Shown one piece after another: positions 1 through 6,757 of a stretch of DNA of 17,232 nt (position 1 is its first letter; each line of letters begins with the position of its first letter). The notes under the pieces were generated by a model. That model was given only the letters and a program-made list of their open reading frames with translations, was not told the origin of the DNA and ran no database searches. A program made the translations under genes and the position numbers. Source of the DNA: Myxococcales bacterium. Lineage in GTDB: Bacteria > Myxococcota > Polyangia > Fen-1088. The stretch lies in NCBI GenBank assembly GCA_003155465.1, contig PMCR01000562.1, positions 1-17,232 on the forward strand, read 5' to 3'.

Positions 1-2553
1 ATCTACGCCGCGGACACCTCGCTGCGCTTCATTCAGCTTTTTGCCAATGGCCAGATGCTGAACGAAGCGCGCTGGCCGAATGCGGATCCAGATGACCTGG
101 TCCACATGTCTCTCGCCAAGGCTGGCCCGAACACGACAGAGACAACCTTGGAAGGACCGACCCTGCCTGCTGGCGATTGGACCGGCGCCTATGTATTCAG
201 CATTCCGGGCCAGCGCTGGAAGAGTTACACGCGCAAGATCGAAGGCTACGATCAAGTCAAGAAGGTGGCGTCGTGGAGCCTTCCCATGCGCGAGACGCCG
301 GCGGAGCCGGCCCTCGCGCCCCGCGCCCGCGACACCTACTACGTATTCGGATCGCTGCTGGCGCTCGACTCGGCCGGCGAGTGGTTCCAGGATCCAGCGA
401 CTGGCAAGGTGTACCTGTGGGCTCCCGGCTCCGTGGATCCCGGCACGCTCAAGATCGAGGTCAAGCAACGCGACTATGGTTTCAACCTCGGGGCGCGCTC
501 GTACATCGACATCACGGGCGTGCGGCTCTTCGCAACGTCTATCCGGATGCTCGGGGCTTCCCATTGCGTGGTCGACGGGGTCCACGCCCGTTACGTGAGC
601 CACCTGCGCGAGACCAACGGCTACGCGACCGGCTGGGCCGGTGGGACGTGGACACCGACCAGTACCGGGATCGTTGTCAAGATCAGCAATAGCGGCAGTT
701 CCCCGCTGTACGTCAACATTGGGGGACCGAACGGTGGTACCGACGCCAGCCAGCGATGGTGCGTGCCTCTCACGACGTTCGACAAACCTGTCTTCATCCC
801 CTGGGAGAGATTCAACACCGCCTGCTCCAACAATTCCGGCACGTACTATGATAGGCAGCCACTAGTGAATGTTGCGGTGTCTGTACCCGGTAGCAACACG
901 CTAGCAACGCCCTTCAACTTCTGCATCAGGGGCATGGCCACAAAACTGGATGGCACCGGTGATTCCGCCATCGAGAGCCCTGCTTGGGCTATCATGGCCG
1001 GGGGATACGTGGCCACCTCCGACTGGCAAGGGGTTGCTTGGACTTTATCAGGAGGAACCGGGACAACCATGACTCCCGCGGATTTCACGACACTTGCCGA
1101 GGGTGGCTCACTCTGCGCATCGGGTTCGGTGGCCGCAACCTCGGACTACAGTGGATATGCCATGGTCGGTATCATGCTAGACGACACCAGGCACGCCAGC
1201 GCGGCCCCTGATCTCGGCGGCGACTTCAACGAATGGAAGAACGGCAGCATCGTATTCGCCGCTGCCGAGGGGATTGTCGCCGCGGGCAACGACAACAAGA
1301 TCACCAACAATGTTGTCCACGACACGAACTACATGGCGGTAGGAGGCGGCGGAATCGCGACCCAAGGCTACACTTTCCTGCCCGCTCGGAATGAGATTAG
1401 TGGCAACACGCTCAATCGCACCGGGTGCATGGGCATCAGTCTCAGCGGCACTACGGCCGCACGTGTGTTGCATAACCGCGTGTCGCAGGCGATGCAGATT
1501 CTCGACGACGGCGGACTCATTTATTCGTGGGGAACGACGGCAGGAGGCTCCGAGGTAGCGTACAACGATGTGTTCGACAACCAGGCCATCTACGGGACCG
1601 GAATCTACCTCGACGAGGGCACGAGCGGCTTCATCGTCCACCACAATCTGGTGCGAAACACCTCATGGTGCGGCGTCAGCTTCAAGGATGTGAACCAGTT
1701 CTTCAACAACACCATTTTGGGAACGCCCATGGGGGCAGCCTCGGAATACAAGAACCAGCATGCAGACGTCTGGGAGGATCTAAGCACGGCGGTCTTCTCG
1801 AACAACCTCATCGAGCAGCGGCCAGGCCTGTTTCTCACGGTCGTTCAGAAGCAGACCACCGATTTTGCCGACTACCAGACGATCATTCCAGTGACCAAGG
1901 ACTGGCAGAAAGTCAGCGTAGCTTTCTCGTCCCTCACCCAGCCCAATTGGGGCCTGCGCGAAAGCCTCGACCTGACCAACGTCACCGGACTCGGCTGGAC
2001 CGTGGGAACCCTGGGCGCCTACGAGATCGACATCGACGACGTCTGGCTGGAGGGAACGACGCCGAAACTGGTCGACGATTTCGACGCTGGCTCGACCAAT
2101 CGCCTCGGTGGCGCGTGGTCGGGCAACGGCGGCAGCGGCTCGACGGCCGCCGAGAGCACTGTTGCTGGCTACACCGGGAACGCCGTGGCCCTGACGGGAA
2201 CCAACATCAGAGAGGGAGTTGCCGGACTGGGCACTTTCCTGTCGTCAGGCGCGGGACCGACCGATGTCTCCGCCTACACCGGCATCTCCTTCCGCATCCG
2301 CGGCACGGCCACTCTCACATTGTCGAATGGAACTGCGACCACGACGCCCGCGCAGGCGCACAACCTCGAATGCCCAGTCGATGCCAACGGCGTGCCCACC
2401 AGTAGCTGCCCCGTCGATCAGGGTGGCCTCTTTTCGCCCTACACCGACGGATTCGCCGGCACCGCGCCCGACGTCGGCGCCTTCGAGTCCGGCGTCGCGC
2501 CATGGACGGCAGGCTCCACCACCGTCGAACCATCGGCCTTGTGTCCGGAGTAG
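1..2553 (+). CDS. Large right-handed beta-helix surface protein, copy 1 (5' end outside window)
   Basis: The frame is open from base 1; the ATG at 55 is internal, because the paralogue downstream aligns across it. By that alignment about 720 bases of gene, including any signal peptide, lie upstream of the window. Visible architecture: the first ~215 codons are beta-helix; module A is at ~646-1190 with Cys pairs (RWC, TAC, FNFC, LCASG); beta-helix repeats resume at ~1213-1820 (NGSIVFAAAEGIVAAGN, HNRVSQAMQ, FNNTILG, FSNNLIEQ); module B is at ~1828-2328 (DWQKVSVAF, IDIDDVWLEG, then LVDDFDAG, FRIRG); the C-terminal cap ends in APDVGAFESG. Such proteins are usually exported and bind or cleave polysaccharide; no catalytic lyase residues could be assigned. 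It lies 30 bases before its paralogue on the same strand, so co-transcription is likely. In module A the codons (AGG, CTA, TCA, GGA) look less GC-biased than in copy 2. Confidence 0.85.
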   Translation: MYAADTSLRFIQLFANGQMLNEARWPNADPDDLVHMSLAKAGPNTTETTLEGPTLPAGDWTGAYVFSIPGQRWKSYTRKIEGYDQVKKVASWSLPMRETPAEPALAPRARDTYYVFGSLLALDSAGEWFQDPATGKVYLWAPGSVDPGTLKIEVKQRDYGFNLGARSYIDITGVRLFATSIRMLGASHCVVDGVHARYVSHLRETNGYATGWAGGTWTPTSTGIVVKISNSGSSPLYVNIGGPNGGTDASQRWCVPLTTFDKPVFIPWERFNTACSNNSGTYYDRQPLVNVAVSVPGSNTLATPFNFCIRGMATKLDGTGDSAIESPAWAIMAGGYVATSDWQGVAWTLSGGTGTTMTPADFTTLAEGGSLCASGSVAATSDYSGYAMVGIMLDDTRHASAAPDLGGDFNEWKNGSIVFAAAEGIVAAGNDNKITNNVVHDTNYMAVGGGGIATQGYTFLPARNEISGNTLNRTGCMGISLSGTTAARVLHNRVSQAMQILDDGGLIYSWGTTAGGSEVAYNDVFDNQAIYGTGIYLDEGTSGFIVHHNLVRNTSWCGVSFKDVNQFFNNTILGTPMGAASEYKNQHADVWEDLSTAVFSNNLIEQRPGLFLTVVQKQTTDFADYQTIIPVTKDWQKVSVAFSSLTQPNWGLRESLDLTNVTGLGWTVGTLGAYEIDIDDVWLEGTTPKLVDDFDAGSTNRLGGAWSGNGGSGSTAAESTVAGYTGNAVALTGTNIREGVAGLGTFLSSGAGPTDVSAYTGISFRIRGTATLTLSNGTATTTPAQAHNLECPVDANGVPTSSCPVDQGGLFSPYTDGFAGTAPDVGAFESGVAPWTAGSTTVEPSALCPE

Positions 2554-2583
2554 GCCACCAATGGCCCAAGATTGGAGGACTCG

Positions 2584-5500
2584 ATGAAGACTTCGTACAT
2601 GATTTGCAGGAGCTTGCGGGGCTGGTGTGATGTGTGGTTCGTCGGACTTCTGGCAGCACTGGCGCTTGCCTCGTGCTCTTCGTCGCCAGTGAAACCACCT
2701 TCAGATGCCGCTGGCACCGGCGGCGCTGGGCCTGGCACAGGCGGCGCTGGCGGGAGCCATGGGACGGGAGGTGCCACGACCGTGGATGCCGCTTTGCCGA
2801 TTGAGGCCGGCGTGGCATCTGACGTCGCGCTTGGTGCGAGAGATGTGGCGTCTTCAAACACTGGCGATTCTTTGCCGGATCTGCCGGTCCCTTCGGATTT
2901 CGCAATTCGAATCGATCATCCCGACGTGACGGCAGACTCGCCTGCTCCCCTGGATGCCTCGGTCGATCAAGCAGTCAGTGGTCTGGATGCCCAGGCTGCG
3001 GGAATTGCCGACGCAGGTTCCGAGGCGCGTCCGTACATGGGGCCGGCGACCTTCTACATCGCGACCACCGGCTCGGACCAGGCGGAAGGGACGCTGGGCG
3101 CGCCCTTCCGTACGATCCAGCGCTGCGCGGCTTGGGCCCAGCCAGGGGATAGCTGCATGATTCGCGCCGGCACATACCGCGAAACCGTGACGCCCGCGCG
3201 CTCGGGAACCAGCGCCGCGCACATCAGCTTCGAGGCGTATCAGGGCGAGTGCGTGACCGTGAACGGCGCCGACGTTTTGACTGCGACCTGGAAGCCATAC
3301 CAGGGATCGATCTACGTTGCTGACACCTCGTTGCGCTTCATCCAGCTTTTCGCGGGCGGCAAGATGCTGAACGAGGCGCGCTGGCCGAACGCCGATCCGG
3401 CCGATCTGGTCCACATGCCGCTGGCCCAGGCCGGCCAAGCCACTACAGAAACAAGCCTGGAAGGCCCGACCCTGCCTGCTGGCGACTGGACCGGCGCCTA
3501 TGTATTCAGCATTCCTGGCCAGCGCTGGGTGAGCTACACGCGCAAGATTGAGAGCTACGATCAAGTCAAGAAGCTGGCGACTTGGAGCCTTCCCATGCGC
3601 GAGTCGCCGGCGATTCCAGAACTCGCGCCCCGCGCGCGGGATACCTACTACGTCTTTGGATCGCTCCTGGCGCTCGACTCGGCGGGCGAGTGGTTCCAGG
3701 ATCCGACGACTGGCAAGGTGTACCTGTGGGCGCCAGGCTCAGTGGACCCCAGCACGCTCAAAATCGAGGTCAAGCAGCGCGACTATGGCTTCAACCTCGG
3801 GGCGCGTTCGTACATCGACATCACGGGCGTGCGGCTCTTCGCAACCTCGATCCGCATGCTCGGGGCTTCCCATTGCGTGGTCGACGGGGTCCATGCCCGG
3901 TACATCAGCCACCTGCGCGAGACCAACGGCTACGTCACCGGTCGAACCGACGGGGCGTCGACCTGGACGCCGACCGAGGCCGGGCTGGTCGTCAACCTGA
4001 GCAATCCTGGCGGCTCGAAGCTGATGGTGAACCTTCAGGCCAAGGCCAGCGATGGCGGAACGTCGCCTTTCTGGTGTTTCCAGCCGACGTCGTTCGGCTC
4101 TCCGATGTTCATTCCTTGGGAGAAGTTCAACAGCAAGTGCCGGGACAACTCGGGGGCTTTCTACGCGCGAGAACCGCTCCACGCCATCTGGGTGAGCGTA
4201 CCCGGCGGTCTGGGCGACGTCCCCTTCGACTTCTGCCTCCTCGGCATCGCAACCAAGCTCGATACCGGCGACGCCTCGGTGGAAAGCCCGCTCTGGGCGG
4301 TTCGCGGTGGAAAGCACGCGGCCACCGCGACCTGGGAGGGCTACTTCTCGTCGGGGGCCAGTCCCGGCTCGACGTTGACGCTCTCGGCGCTCTCCACCGT
4401 CGGCACGAGCAATACGGCTTGCGCCTCGGGCACGATCAAGGGGACCGCGGACTACAGTGGCTACGCCGGCTTCGGCTTCAACCTGGCCGAGCGCAACCAG
4501 TCCAGCACGGCGCCCGCTCCCGACGGCGACTTCGACGAGTGGAAGAATGGCAGCATCGCCTTCGCCGCCACGGAGGCCATCGTCGCCGCTGGCAACGACG
4601 CCAAGATCAGCAACATCGTCGTGCACGACACGGGCTACATGGCCGCAGGCAACGGCGGCATCTCGATGGAAAACTGGTTCCTTCCCCCCGCGCGCAACGA
4701 AATCAGCGACAACACGGTCAGCCGCACCGGCCGCATGGGGATCGCCAACTACGGGGACGTCGCCGCCCGCATCCTCCGCAACCGGGTGAGCCAGGCGATG
4801 CAGATCATCGATGACGGCGGGCTCATCTACTCACCCTACACCAACGCCACCAGCGCCGAGATCGCCTACAACCATCTCTCGGACATCCCGTGCATCTACG
4901 GCACCGGTATCTACCTCGACGACGGCGCAAGCGGCTACACCGTCCACCACAACTTCATCCACGACGTCTCGTGGTGGGGAGTGTCGCTCAAGAATCCGAA
5001 CCGCTTCTTCAACAACACCATCCTGCGCACCGCGCTCGGCGCGGGTTCGATCTACAAGGAGGGCAACACGACGTGGGTCGATCTGTCGAGCGCGGTGTTC
5101 TCGAACAACCTCATCGAGCAGCGCCCCGGTGTCACGTTCAGCCTGCTGCAGAAGCAAACCACCGACTACGCCGACTACCAGATCATCGTTCCCGTGACGT
5201 CCGAGTGGCAGAAGGTAGTGCTTCCCTTTGCGTCGCTGCGCCAACCCAACTACGGACTCCGTACAACCTTGGACCTCACGAACCCAACCAGCCTCGCCTG
5301 GACCGTCGGCACTCTGGGCGCCTATCAAATCGACCTCGACGATGTTTGGCTGGAGGGGATCACACCCAGGTTGCTCGACGACTTCGACGGAACGGCAACC
5401 AACCAACTTGGCGGTTCGTGGTTCCCGAACTGTGGCAACGGCTCGACCTGCGCCAGAAGCTTGACCTCCGGATACGCGGGCAACGCCTTTGGCTTGACCG

Positions 5501-5859
5501 GTACTGCCGTCAAGGAAGGGTTCGCGGGCATCGCTACCTTTTTGTCCGCGACCAGCGGGAACGTCGCCGATCTCTCCGCCTACAGCGGAATCTCCTTCCG
5601 CATCCGGGGCACGGCCACTCTCACATTGTCGAATGGAACTGCGACCACGACGCCCGCGCAGGCGCACAACCTCGAATGCCCAGTCGACGCCAATGGCCTG
5701 CCCACCAGTAGCTGCCCCGTCGATCAAGGTGGACTCTTCTCGCCCTACACCGACGGATTCACCGGCACCGCGCCCGACGTCGGCGCCTTTGAATCCGGCG
5801 TCACGCCATGGACGGCAGGCTCGACCACCGTCGAGCCATCGGCCTTGTGTCCGGAGTAG
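2584..5859 (+). CDS. Large beta-helix lipoprotein with two inserted CBM-like modules, copy 2
   Basis: This 1091-residue protein probably sits on the outside of the cell. ATG 2584 is chosen because GGAGG (2574-2578) lies 5 bases upstream; an in-frame TTG at 2572 overlaps that ribosome site. Residues 1-31 form a lipoprotein signal (hydrophobic GLLAALALAS, lipobox LASC with Cys31). A Gly/Thr/Ala-rich linker (~40-65) and an Asp/Pro/Val-rich stretch reach to ~155. The beta-helix begins at ~156 (FYIATTGSDQ, TIQRCAAWAQPGDSC), in DUF1565/pectate-lyase-like style. Module A occupies ~460-639, beta-helix repeats ~649-849, module B ~850-1017, and the helix cap with TAPDVGAFESG the C-terminus. In both modules the half normally second comes first (see findings). 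No catalytic residues were recognised, so it may be a polysaccharide lyase, an adhesin or a glycan-binding protein. The fold call is strong, the activity unknown. Confidence 0.88.
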   Translation: MKTSYMICRSLRGWCDVWFVGLLAALALASCSSSPVKPPSDAAGTGGAGPGTGGAGGSHGTGGATTVDAALPIEAGVASDVALGARDVASSNTGDSLPDLPVPSDFAIRIDHPDVTADSPAPLDASVDQAVSGLDAQAAGIADAGSEARPYMGPATFYIATTGSDQAEGTLGAPFRTIQRCAAWAQPGDSCMIRAGTYRETVTPARSGTSAAHISFEAYQGECVTVNGADVLTATWKPYQGSIYVADTSLRFIQLFAGGKMLNEARWPNADPADLVHMPLAQAGQATTETSLEGPTLPAGDWTGAYVFSIPGQRWVSYTRKIESYDQVKKLATWSLPMRESPAIPELAPRARDTYYVFGSLLALDSAGEWFQDPTTGKVYLWAPGSVDPSTLKIEVKQRDYGFNLGARSYIDITGVRLFATSIRMLGASHCVVDGVHARYISHLRETNGYVTGRTDGASTWTPTEAGLVVNLSNPGGSKLMVNLQAKASDGGTSPFWCFQPTSFGSPMFIPWEKFNSKCRDNSGAFYAREPLHAIWVSVPGGLGDVPFDFCLLGIATKLDTGDASVESPLWAVRGGKHAATATWEGYFSSGASPGSTLTLSALSTVGTSNTACASGTIKGTADYSGYAGFGFNLAERNQSSTAPAPDGDFDEWKNGSIAFAATEAIVAAGNDAKISNIVVHDTGYMAAGNGGISMENWFLPPARNEISDNTVSRTGRMGIANYGDVAARILRNRVSQAMQIIDDGGLIYSPYTNATSAEIAYNHLSDIPCIYGTGIYLDDGASGYTVHHNFIHDVSWWGVSLKNPNRFFNNTILRTALGAGSIYKEGNTTWVDLSSAVFSNNLIEQRPGVTFSLLQKQTTDYADYQIIVPVTSEWQKVVLPFASLRQPNYGLRTTLDLTNPTSLAWTVGTLGAYQIDLDDVWLEGITPRLLDDFDGTATNQLGGSWFPNCGNGSTCARSLTSGYAGNAFGLTGTAVKEGFAGIATFLSATSGNVADLSAYSGISFRIRGTATLTLSNGTATTTPAQAHNLECPVDANGLPTSSCPVDQGGLFSPYTDGFTGTAPDVGAFESGVTPWTAGSTTVEPSALCPE

Positions 5860-5963: not shown

Positions 5964-5982
5964 AGGCCAATGGATTGGGCCT
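5964..5982. promoter_or_regulatory. Near-palindrome upstream of the ECF sigma gene, possible operator
   Basis: AGGCCAAT, then GG, then ATTGGGCCT: two 8-base arms with one extra G on the right, and a perfect core CCAAT-GG-ATTGG at 5967-5978. It lies ~55 bases before the preferred start of the sigma factor gene, a suitable place for a regulator site. No matching regulator is known from the window. Confidence 0.25.
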
Positions 5983-6037
5983 AGCCTGGATGCAGCGCAA
6001 CGCGTCGGTCCCGGCTTTGCACACGCAAGGGACTGCC

Positions 6038-6757
6038 ATGCAACCAACCACGGATTTCGCCAAGTTAGCGGACCTGGCAGCAAGACCGCCACAGTCGAGC
6101 GTGGCGGCTCGGTCTTCGGTGGGCGGTTTGGCGCGTCGGAAGATGCTTGCGGTGGTGGACGAAACACCACGCGATGACGCATCTGTTCTGGCAGAGCAGG
6201 CACAGGCTGGCGATGCCCAGGCGCTGCGGCCGCTCCTCGAACAGATCCGGCCGCGAGCCCTGGCCATTGCGATGAAGGTGTTGCGCAACCGCGACGACGC
6301 CGAGGATGCCGTGCAAGACGCGATGTTGAAGGTGTGGCGCAACCTGCACCGCTTCGAAGGCCGCGCGTCCTTCACCACCTGGATCCATCGCATCGTGATG
6401 AACGCAAGCCTCGATCTTCTTCGCAAGCGCTCTGGCCGGGCCGAGGGCATGGCGGCTGACGAGCGTGGTGACGATTGCCAACCAAAGCTTGAGCCGGCCC
6501 ACGACCAGACTCCCGAGCGCGAACTGGGGATCGCCCAGATGCAGCTTCTGGTGCGGGCTGCGGTGGCCCGGTTGGCGCCAGTGCACCGGCAGGCCATCAC
6601 CCTGCGCGAATTTGAGGACTGCGCCTACGACGAAATCGCCGAAGTCGCGGCTTGTCCCATCGGCACCGTCATGTCACGCCTGCATCACGCCCGGCAGCGG
6701 GTTGCCGAGGACTTGCGAGCAGCCGCAGATTTCGAAGTCGAGCTCTGGGCCGCGTAG
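6038..6757 (+). CDS. ECF-type RNA polymerase sigma factor
   Basis: A sigma-70 family factor of the extracytoplasmic-function group, which directs RNA polymerase to a set of stress or envelope promoters. ATG 6038 gives 239 residues and has AAGGGA (6027-6032) 5 bases upstream; in-frame TTG 5975 and ATG 5990 lack such a site. Region 2 spans ~50-130 (DDAEDAVQDAMLKVWRNL, then FEGRASFTTWIHRIVMNASLD), region 4 spans ~166-228 (APVHRQAITLREFEDCAYDEIA, then GTVMSRLHHARQRV, the recognition helix). The ~45-residue N-terminal extension before region 2 is longer than usual. No anti-sigma gene follows: the next gene is convergent, with one base between the two stop codons. How its activity is controlled is therefore unclear; upstream lies a near-palindrome. 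Confidence 0.92.
   Translation: MQPTTDFAKLADLAARPPQSSVAARSSVGGLARRKMLAVVDETPRDDASVLAEQAQAGDAQALRPLLEQIRPRALAIAMKVLRNRDDAEDAVQDAMLKVWRNLHRFEGRASFTTWIHRIVMNASLDLLRKRSGRAEGMAADERGDDCQPKLEPAHDQTPERELGIAQMQLLVRAAVARLAPVHRQAITLREFEDCAYDEIAEVAACPIGTVMSRLHHARQRVAEDLRAAADFEVELWAA

Follow-up and report, generated by a model that had tools for sequence, protein, structure and literature searches.

The 17,232-nt stretch of DNA analysed here (the window; contig PMCR01000562.1 of a Myxococcales bacterium, assembly GCA_003155465.1) raises the question of how a module resembling the CBM11 and CIA30 beta-sandwiches came to lie inside the beta-helix of a lipoprotein-like protein with its two halves in reversed order. 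Our analysis concluded, with a probability of about 0.92, that this domain, module B of open reading frame (ORF) 2, is a CBM11/CIA30-type beta-sandwich whose old ends were joined via GITPR and whose new ends, made by opening an internal hairpin at its tip, build it into a GH141-like helix. The computed support consists of the better matches in swapped order, the prediction of one compact domain, the ordinary arrangement of such modules outside the family, relatives with empty sites, and an origin common to all carriers examined. The features concerned are the following; the halves are called N-half and C-half according to their place in ordinary modules.

2584..5859, + strand: ORF2, host gene, lipoprotein-like with a GH141-like right-handed beta-helix
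5131..5634, + strand: module B, in all probability a circularly permuted CBM11/CIA30-type beta-sandwich, ahead of the last beta-helix coil
5131..5355, + strand: first half of module B, C-terminal in ordinary modules (VTFSLLQ...WQKVVLPF...IDLDDVWLE), residues 849-923
5356..5370, + strand: GITPR, short join of the probable old C-terminus to the old N-terminus, residues 924-928, peak of the rotation scan
5371..5634, + strand: second half of module B, N-terminal in ordinary modules (LLDDFDG...LGGSW...ISFRIRGTATLTLSN), residues 929-1016

Residues are numbered as in protein P0001, in which residue r begins at window base 2587 + 3(r-1) and the ATG at 2584 is not counted. Module B occupies residues 849-1016, or 850-1017 with the ATG counted, the latter being the range given by an initial annotation of this DNA, whose reading frame, motifs and coordinates for the module were confirmed. 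The motifs W..V.LPF...IDLDDV stand in the first half and LLDDFDG...LGGSW...ISFRIRG in the second.

Sequence matches of module B in native and swapped order

Pfam profiles were compared with module B in both orders, the cut-offs being 27 bits for CBM_11 and 24 bits for CIA30. In native order, CBM_11 matched only the second half of the window module (80-161 on profile positions 13-90, 17.5 bits, E 4.5e-3), while in swapped order the match covered 3-163 on 13-177 of 182 positions with 22.9 bits (E 9.7e-5), still below the cut-off. The CIA30 score rose from 20.4 bits, under the cut-off, to 24.9 bits, over it. Improvement was found in three of the four module B sequences compared, the others being those of P0025 (CIA30, 23.3 native and 31.4 swapped) and P0019 (no match in native order, CBM_11 at 17.1 when swapped).

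The PDB entries 2lro and 1v0a, listed as endoglucanase H and which we take to be CBM11 modules from Clostridium thermocellum, matched native module B as two separate stretches, reversed in order (77-158 on 5-75, and 20-61 on 107-154; 22 bits in all, E 1.5e-3) and swapped module B in a single piece (3-151 on 8-153, 29.5 bits, E 7.8e-6). With a profile of seven sequences, the score against PDB CBM11 rose from 26.7 bits in native order to 35.8 bits in swapped order (E 6.8e-8), and other PDB rows, such as CIA30, were reached by the swapped profile at E 0.11-0.14 only. A better full-length CBM11/CIA30 match with the halves exchanged was what the initial annotation had named as support, and this check came out in its favour.

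A 34-row alignment of module B was also rotated in steps of four (42 rotations) and compared with 21 ordinary modules, of which 18 were ORF segments matched N-half first by half-profiles of the family and three were taken by eye (P0028, P0038); no ORF outside the family was hit C-half first by these half-profiles when the set was chosen. The score was 114.5 over 75 aligned columns in native order, and it rose smoothly to one maximum at residue 925 in GITPR, where the junction is proposed, with 203.9 over 162 columns (E 7.7e-33 for a single comparison). Column shuffles of module B reached at most 19.8 (100 shuffles, with 12 rotations each as against 42 in the real scan), which places the signal of module B well beyond chance. 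When each ordinary module was rotated by 10 residues at a time, with the other 20 as reference, 19 of the 21 scored best unrotated and the remaining two gained no more than 1.6 from a 10-residue shift. A single rotation peak in module B, with ordinary modules peaking unrotated, is the pattern of circular permutation.

Several results weigh against this interpretation. With single sequences, module B matches CBM11/CIA30 weakly (E 1e-3 to 1e-5), and module B of P0014 had no CBM11/CIA30 match in Pfam in either order, SGBP_B_XBD being found at 14.4 bits both ways. A sequential structure search by Foldseek, with the model of module B as query, found nothing at E <= 0.001, and CBM11 was absent from the VIA rows shown for this model. 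The weak single-sequence matches would also suit the explanation that the likeness to CBM11/CIA30 is chance or a general resemblance among beta-sandwiches and that the swap is an artefact of weak alignment; this is scarcely credible in view of the rotated profile, which matched ordinary modules far above the shuffles and with one smooth peak. The blank in the structure searches is expected of a permuted chain, and structure search tools are reported to miss permutants in an excerpt of PMC12667903; yet such a blank is no positive proof.

Predicted fold of module B

Module B by itself was predicted as one domain of eleven strands (predicted local distance difference test score (pLDDT) 95.4, predicted template modelling score (pTM) 0.89), which agrees with the single compact beta-sandwich foreseen in the initial annotation. 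Both module B and module A, a second CBM11-like insert of the same protein described below, run from C-half to N-half, and the sequence alone would therefore allow the halves not to form one domain but each to pair elsewhere, either by strand exchange in a dimer or between A and B, keeping the ordinary topology. This is highly unlikely, considering the confident prediction of module B as a single domain and the 22 complete relatives (P0014-P0036 minus P0032) that carry module B but have no module A as a pairing partner.

Module B thus resembles CBM11/CIA30 over its whole length only when swapped, is predicted to form a single beta-sandwich, and departs from these families in lacking their N-half-to-C-half order. 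The reversed order of the halves makes it a permuted derivative rather than a plain CBM11/CIA30 member.

Order of the halves inside and outside the family

The family members were the top of the best 120 of 141 matches, from 7994 candidates scored. All 34 distinct complete members, both window genes included, carry the C-half followed by the N-half, the order noted initially for one protein; P0032, which is incomplete, was excluded from the count. The half-profiles used were derived from the same family proteins, and their scores are therefore given by construction, only the order being informative.

Outside the family, both halves were found in 41 ORFs from 209 loci, which formed 34 clusters from several phyla, and all 34 clusters have the N-half first, as does P0038. 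The placement of the DDF...LGG.W half at the N-terminus, given in the initial annotation as the usual order, is that of PDB CBM11 and of every outside cluster. The ordinary-order profile, the native-order profile and other queries served to collect the 209 loci; in many genomes only part of the first-look candidates was scored by the profile searches.

The native-order searches sampled the phyla to which the L033, L037 and L060 genomes belong (377, 318 and 324 genomes). By design they favour permuted modules, yet they yielded none that held up. Most matches covered one half. A few native-order spans were longer; some of them, such as those in L117 and L122, ran across a stop codon, and those in L192, L196 and L197 ran on without crossing one. 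In L192 the start of the N-half precedes the C-half, and this locus was read as an ordinary module followed by another module. L196 (span 33-105) is a weak match, and L197 (span 22-159) consists of a C-half and then an apparent further module, with the sequence cut at the match; both come from another phylum, and either may be a second permuted case. By half-profiles, the order of C-half then N-half was found in none of the outside ORFs, L192, L196 and L197 included. In addition, a scan of viral contigs found nothing, module B of P0025, used by itself as a protein query, retrieved only the self-match, and a scan of genome contigs gave at least 80 distant beta-helix loci among the matches listed, the close family not being among them.

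These counts bear on the possibility that the present order is ancestral and the ordinary CBM11/CIA30 order derived. The presence of the former in all 34 distinct complete members would fit, but the ordinary order is found in PDB CBM11 and in the outside clusters of several phyla, and among the sequences examined the present order is limited to a single branch of a single enzyme family, which makes this possibility extremely unlikely. The initial annotation had named a normal occurrence of the present order in relatives as contrary evidence; such an occurrence was found inside the beta-helix family only, where it reflects one event, and not outside, where the usual order prevails. Two points go beyond what had been noted initially: the permutation extends, within the range examined, over the entire family, and module A appears to be permuted as well, with a different opening point.

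P0028 carries the permuted module B inside its helix (535-702) and a similar module at its C-terminus (about 945-1097), which scores best unrotated.

Insertion site and origin of module B

Module B is an insert, since relatives such as P0037 go directly from the ..NNL.. coil into the last coil of the helix. Among 154 beta-helix sequences in which both flanks were recognised, the site holds 3-59 residues (median 23) in 118 and more than 120 residues in 36, the latter being 35 family rows, which represent 34 distinct proteins (P0001 and P0002 are the same), and the ORF L034 from Calditrichaeota. The L034 protein (900 residues) has a domain inserted near the module B site, which by eye resembles a CBM4/9 module in ordinary order.

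In the alignment of swapped module B with CBM11, the join between TLTLSN and VTFSLL falls on a stretch of CBM11 that resembles a hairpin tip (SVDGSAN). A cut at such a tip would leave the new ends adjacent to each other, a geometry that fits insertion into a loop of the host. The proposal that the module was opened, its old ends joined and the whole inserted into the beta-helix is supported by the swap tests, the rotation peak at GITPR and the empty sites.

A tree was built from the beta-helix part of 42 rows (P0002, P0032, P0034 and P0084 left out; midpoint root; some branches long). One branch (100/98) sets all carriers of module B apart from the other rows, and the carriers of module A are nested within them (100/100). 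With the empty-site rows taken as outside, this gives gains in the order empty site, module B, module A, with module B gained once.

Module A

The second insert, present at residues 451-646 in P0001-P0013 and absent from P0014-P0036, comprises the following.

3937..4524, + strand: module A, CBM11-like insert, apparently permuted and opened one strand before the point at which B was opened
3958..4266, + strand: first half of module A, C-terminal in ordinary modules (AGLVVNLSN...MFIPWEKF...VPFDFCLLGIATK)
4267..4506, + strand: second half of module A, N-terminal in ordinary modules (W..GYFSS...GSTLTL...CASGTIKG...YAGFGFNLAE)

With the first set, of 21 ordinary modules, module A scored 30.0 over 53 columns in native order and 38.4 over 146 columns when started at 559-583; the maximum score of its shuffles was 29.2 (100 shuffles, 14 rotations each). 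A second set of 32 ordinary modules, some common to the first set, was gathered with the L112 module as query. With this set, the scores were 37.4 over 53 columns native and 49.3 over 152 columns rotated (E 4.5e-7 for one comparison), and among 100 shuffles the highest score was 23.4 and the largest gain 5.9. The pattern of circular permutation was therefore seen in module A with the 32-module set and more weakly with the first set.

Other results count against a permuted CBM11-type origin of module A. With the first set, at least one shuffle in 100 gained as much (8.55) as module A did on rotation (8.4). In Pfam, module A matched Big_3_5 at E 0.31 in native order only, and nothing when rotated. 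Its halves match the ordinary profile weakly (the first at 97-195 with 1% probability, the second at 40-87 with 21%), though in the order expected after rotation. When the two halves were searched separately, none of the outside ORFs was matched by both, even at E 20. A shared cysteine pattern (CASG/FDFC in module A, CTSG/DLCID in L112 and L156) was set aside as evidence, being found in one of the 32 ordinary modules.

Module A was apparently opened between YAGFGFNLAE and AGLVVNLSN, and module B one strand later, after GISFRIRGTATLTL; AGLVVNLSN is the first strand of A, and its counterpart GISFRIRG is the last strand of B. Module A is likely to be another module of broadly the same kind, gained later, permuted and opened one strand earlier. 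A single permutation, with module A derived later from permuted module B by copying to a second site in the helix, would account for the A-B alignment in native order, which spans 110-112 columns, for the nearly equal rotations of A and B and for the rise of A within the clade bearing B. The A-B score is just 30.3, however, and is the same when only 48 columns of one half align, while module A fits the 32 ordinary modules better (49.3, rotated), and the opening points lie one strand apart; this single permutation is therefore rather unlikely. The higher score of module A with ordinary modules than with module B makes two permutations somewhat likelier than one. That one enzyme lineage acquired CBM11-type modules on two occasions, at separate sites and each time in permuted form with a different opening point, stands at roughly even odds.

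The host enzyme and the neighbouring genes

A GGAGG sequence precedes the ATG of ORF2 at 2584, and an alternative TTG at 2572 (ORF 2572-5859) is less likely as the start. ORF2 is preceded by a tandem paralogue; P0007, which contains it, is about 71% identical to ORF2.

1..2553, + strand: ORF1, tandem paralogue with both modules and the same architecture as ORF2, 5' end beyond the window, inside P0007
628..1218, + strand: module A of ORF1
1828..2328, + strand: module B of ORF1, order permuted as in ORF2
4813..4815, + strand: Asp743, candidate GH141 catalytic Asp by presumed equivalence, invariant in alignment A1 (46 rows)
4918..4920, + strand: Asp778, candidate second GH141 catalytic Asp by presumed equivalence, invariant in alignment A1 (46 rows)

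The host protein has a right-handed beta-helix like that of the GH141 enzyme BT_1002 (PDB 5mqp), from which it differs in sequence (20% identity, and a match to GH141_M under the cut-off). In an excerpt of PMC5593877, GH141 catalysis is assigned to a pair of Asp residues spaced by 41 in BT1002 and by 37 in Xyn141E; the candidate pair Asp743-Asp778 is spaced by 35. The ORF at window positions 5975-6757, which adjoins the enzyme genes, resembles by eye an extracytoplasmic function (ECF)-type RNA polymerase sigma factor.

Proposed mechanism and implications

In the proposed mechanism, the original N- and C-termini of a CBM11/CIA30-type module would have been joined through about five residues (GITPR), and opening at the tip of an internal beta-hairpin would have given neighbouring new ends, through which module B would be seated in the last turns of the GH141-like beta-helix as a built-in accessory domain. 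The order might have arisen from a duplicated module that then lost its outer halves, or by re-ligation of a piece. The hairpin ends may hold module B rigidly on the helix, and the module probably keeps the polysaccharide close to the enzyme. CBM11-type modules serve as carbohydrate-binding accessory domains in other enzymes, and module B is most likely such a domain, rigidly held, of a predicted polysaccharide-degrading enzyme.

The window thus offers a case of circular permutation coupled to domain insertion, probably twice in one protein, and relatives from before and after each gain, together with the empty site, make it testable why the inserted domain is permuted. If both captures were permuted, insertion into the beta-helix would either demand permuted ends for reasons of geometry or by its nature generate permutants, for instance if a tandem duplicate or a circular intermediate were the source of the insert. 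The permutation also conceals modules A and B from routine annotation; native module B gave only part-matches below threshold in Pfam and no significant match in Foldseek, suggesting that accessory domains of carbohydrate-active enzymes (CAZymes) may be under-counted.

Comparison with known systems

Both halves of CBM11 (PDB 1v0a/2lro; Pfam PF03425) match module B, in which, unlike CBM11, they are reversed and lie inside a beta-helix. CIA30 (Pfam PF08547) matches module B above its cut-off in swapped order (24.9 versus 24; 31.4 for P0025) and below it in native order. A circular permutation between two calcium-dependent binding-module families, CBM36 and CBM60, was reportedly described by Montanier in 2010, which would be a precedent for permutation between binding-module families, though in CBM families other than those considered here. 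The HABAS insertions in RNA polymerase are, in an excerpt of PMC11515920, inserted domains in topologies related by circular permutation, and inserted domains of permuted topology in RNA polymerase also appear in part of PMC13114784; HABAS and module B are alike in being inserted and permutation-related, and differ in fold and host. Among the titles and opening lines of abstracts returned by full-text searches, which mostly leave aside the subscription literature, there was no permuted CBM11-type module and no GH141-like enzyme bearing one. In conclusion, permutation is already known both for binding modules and for inserted domains, and what is new here is a permuted CBM11-type module in a GH141-like beta-helix.

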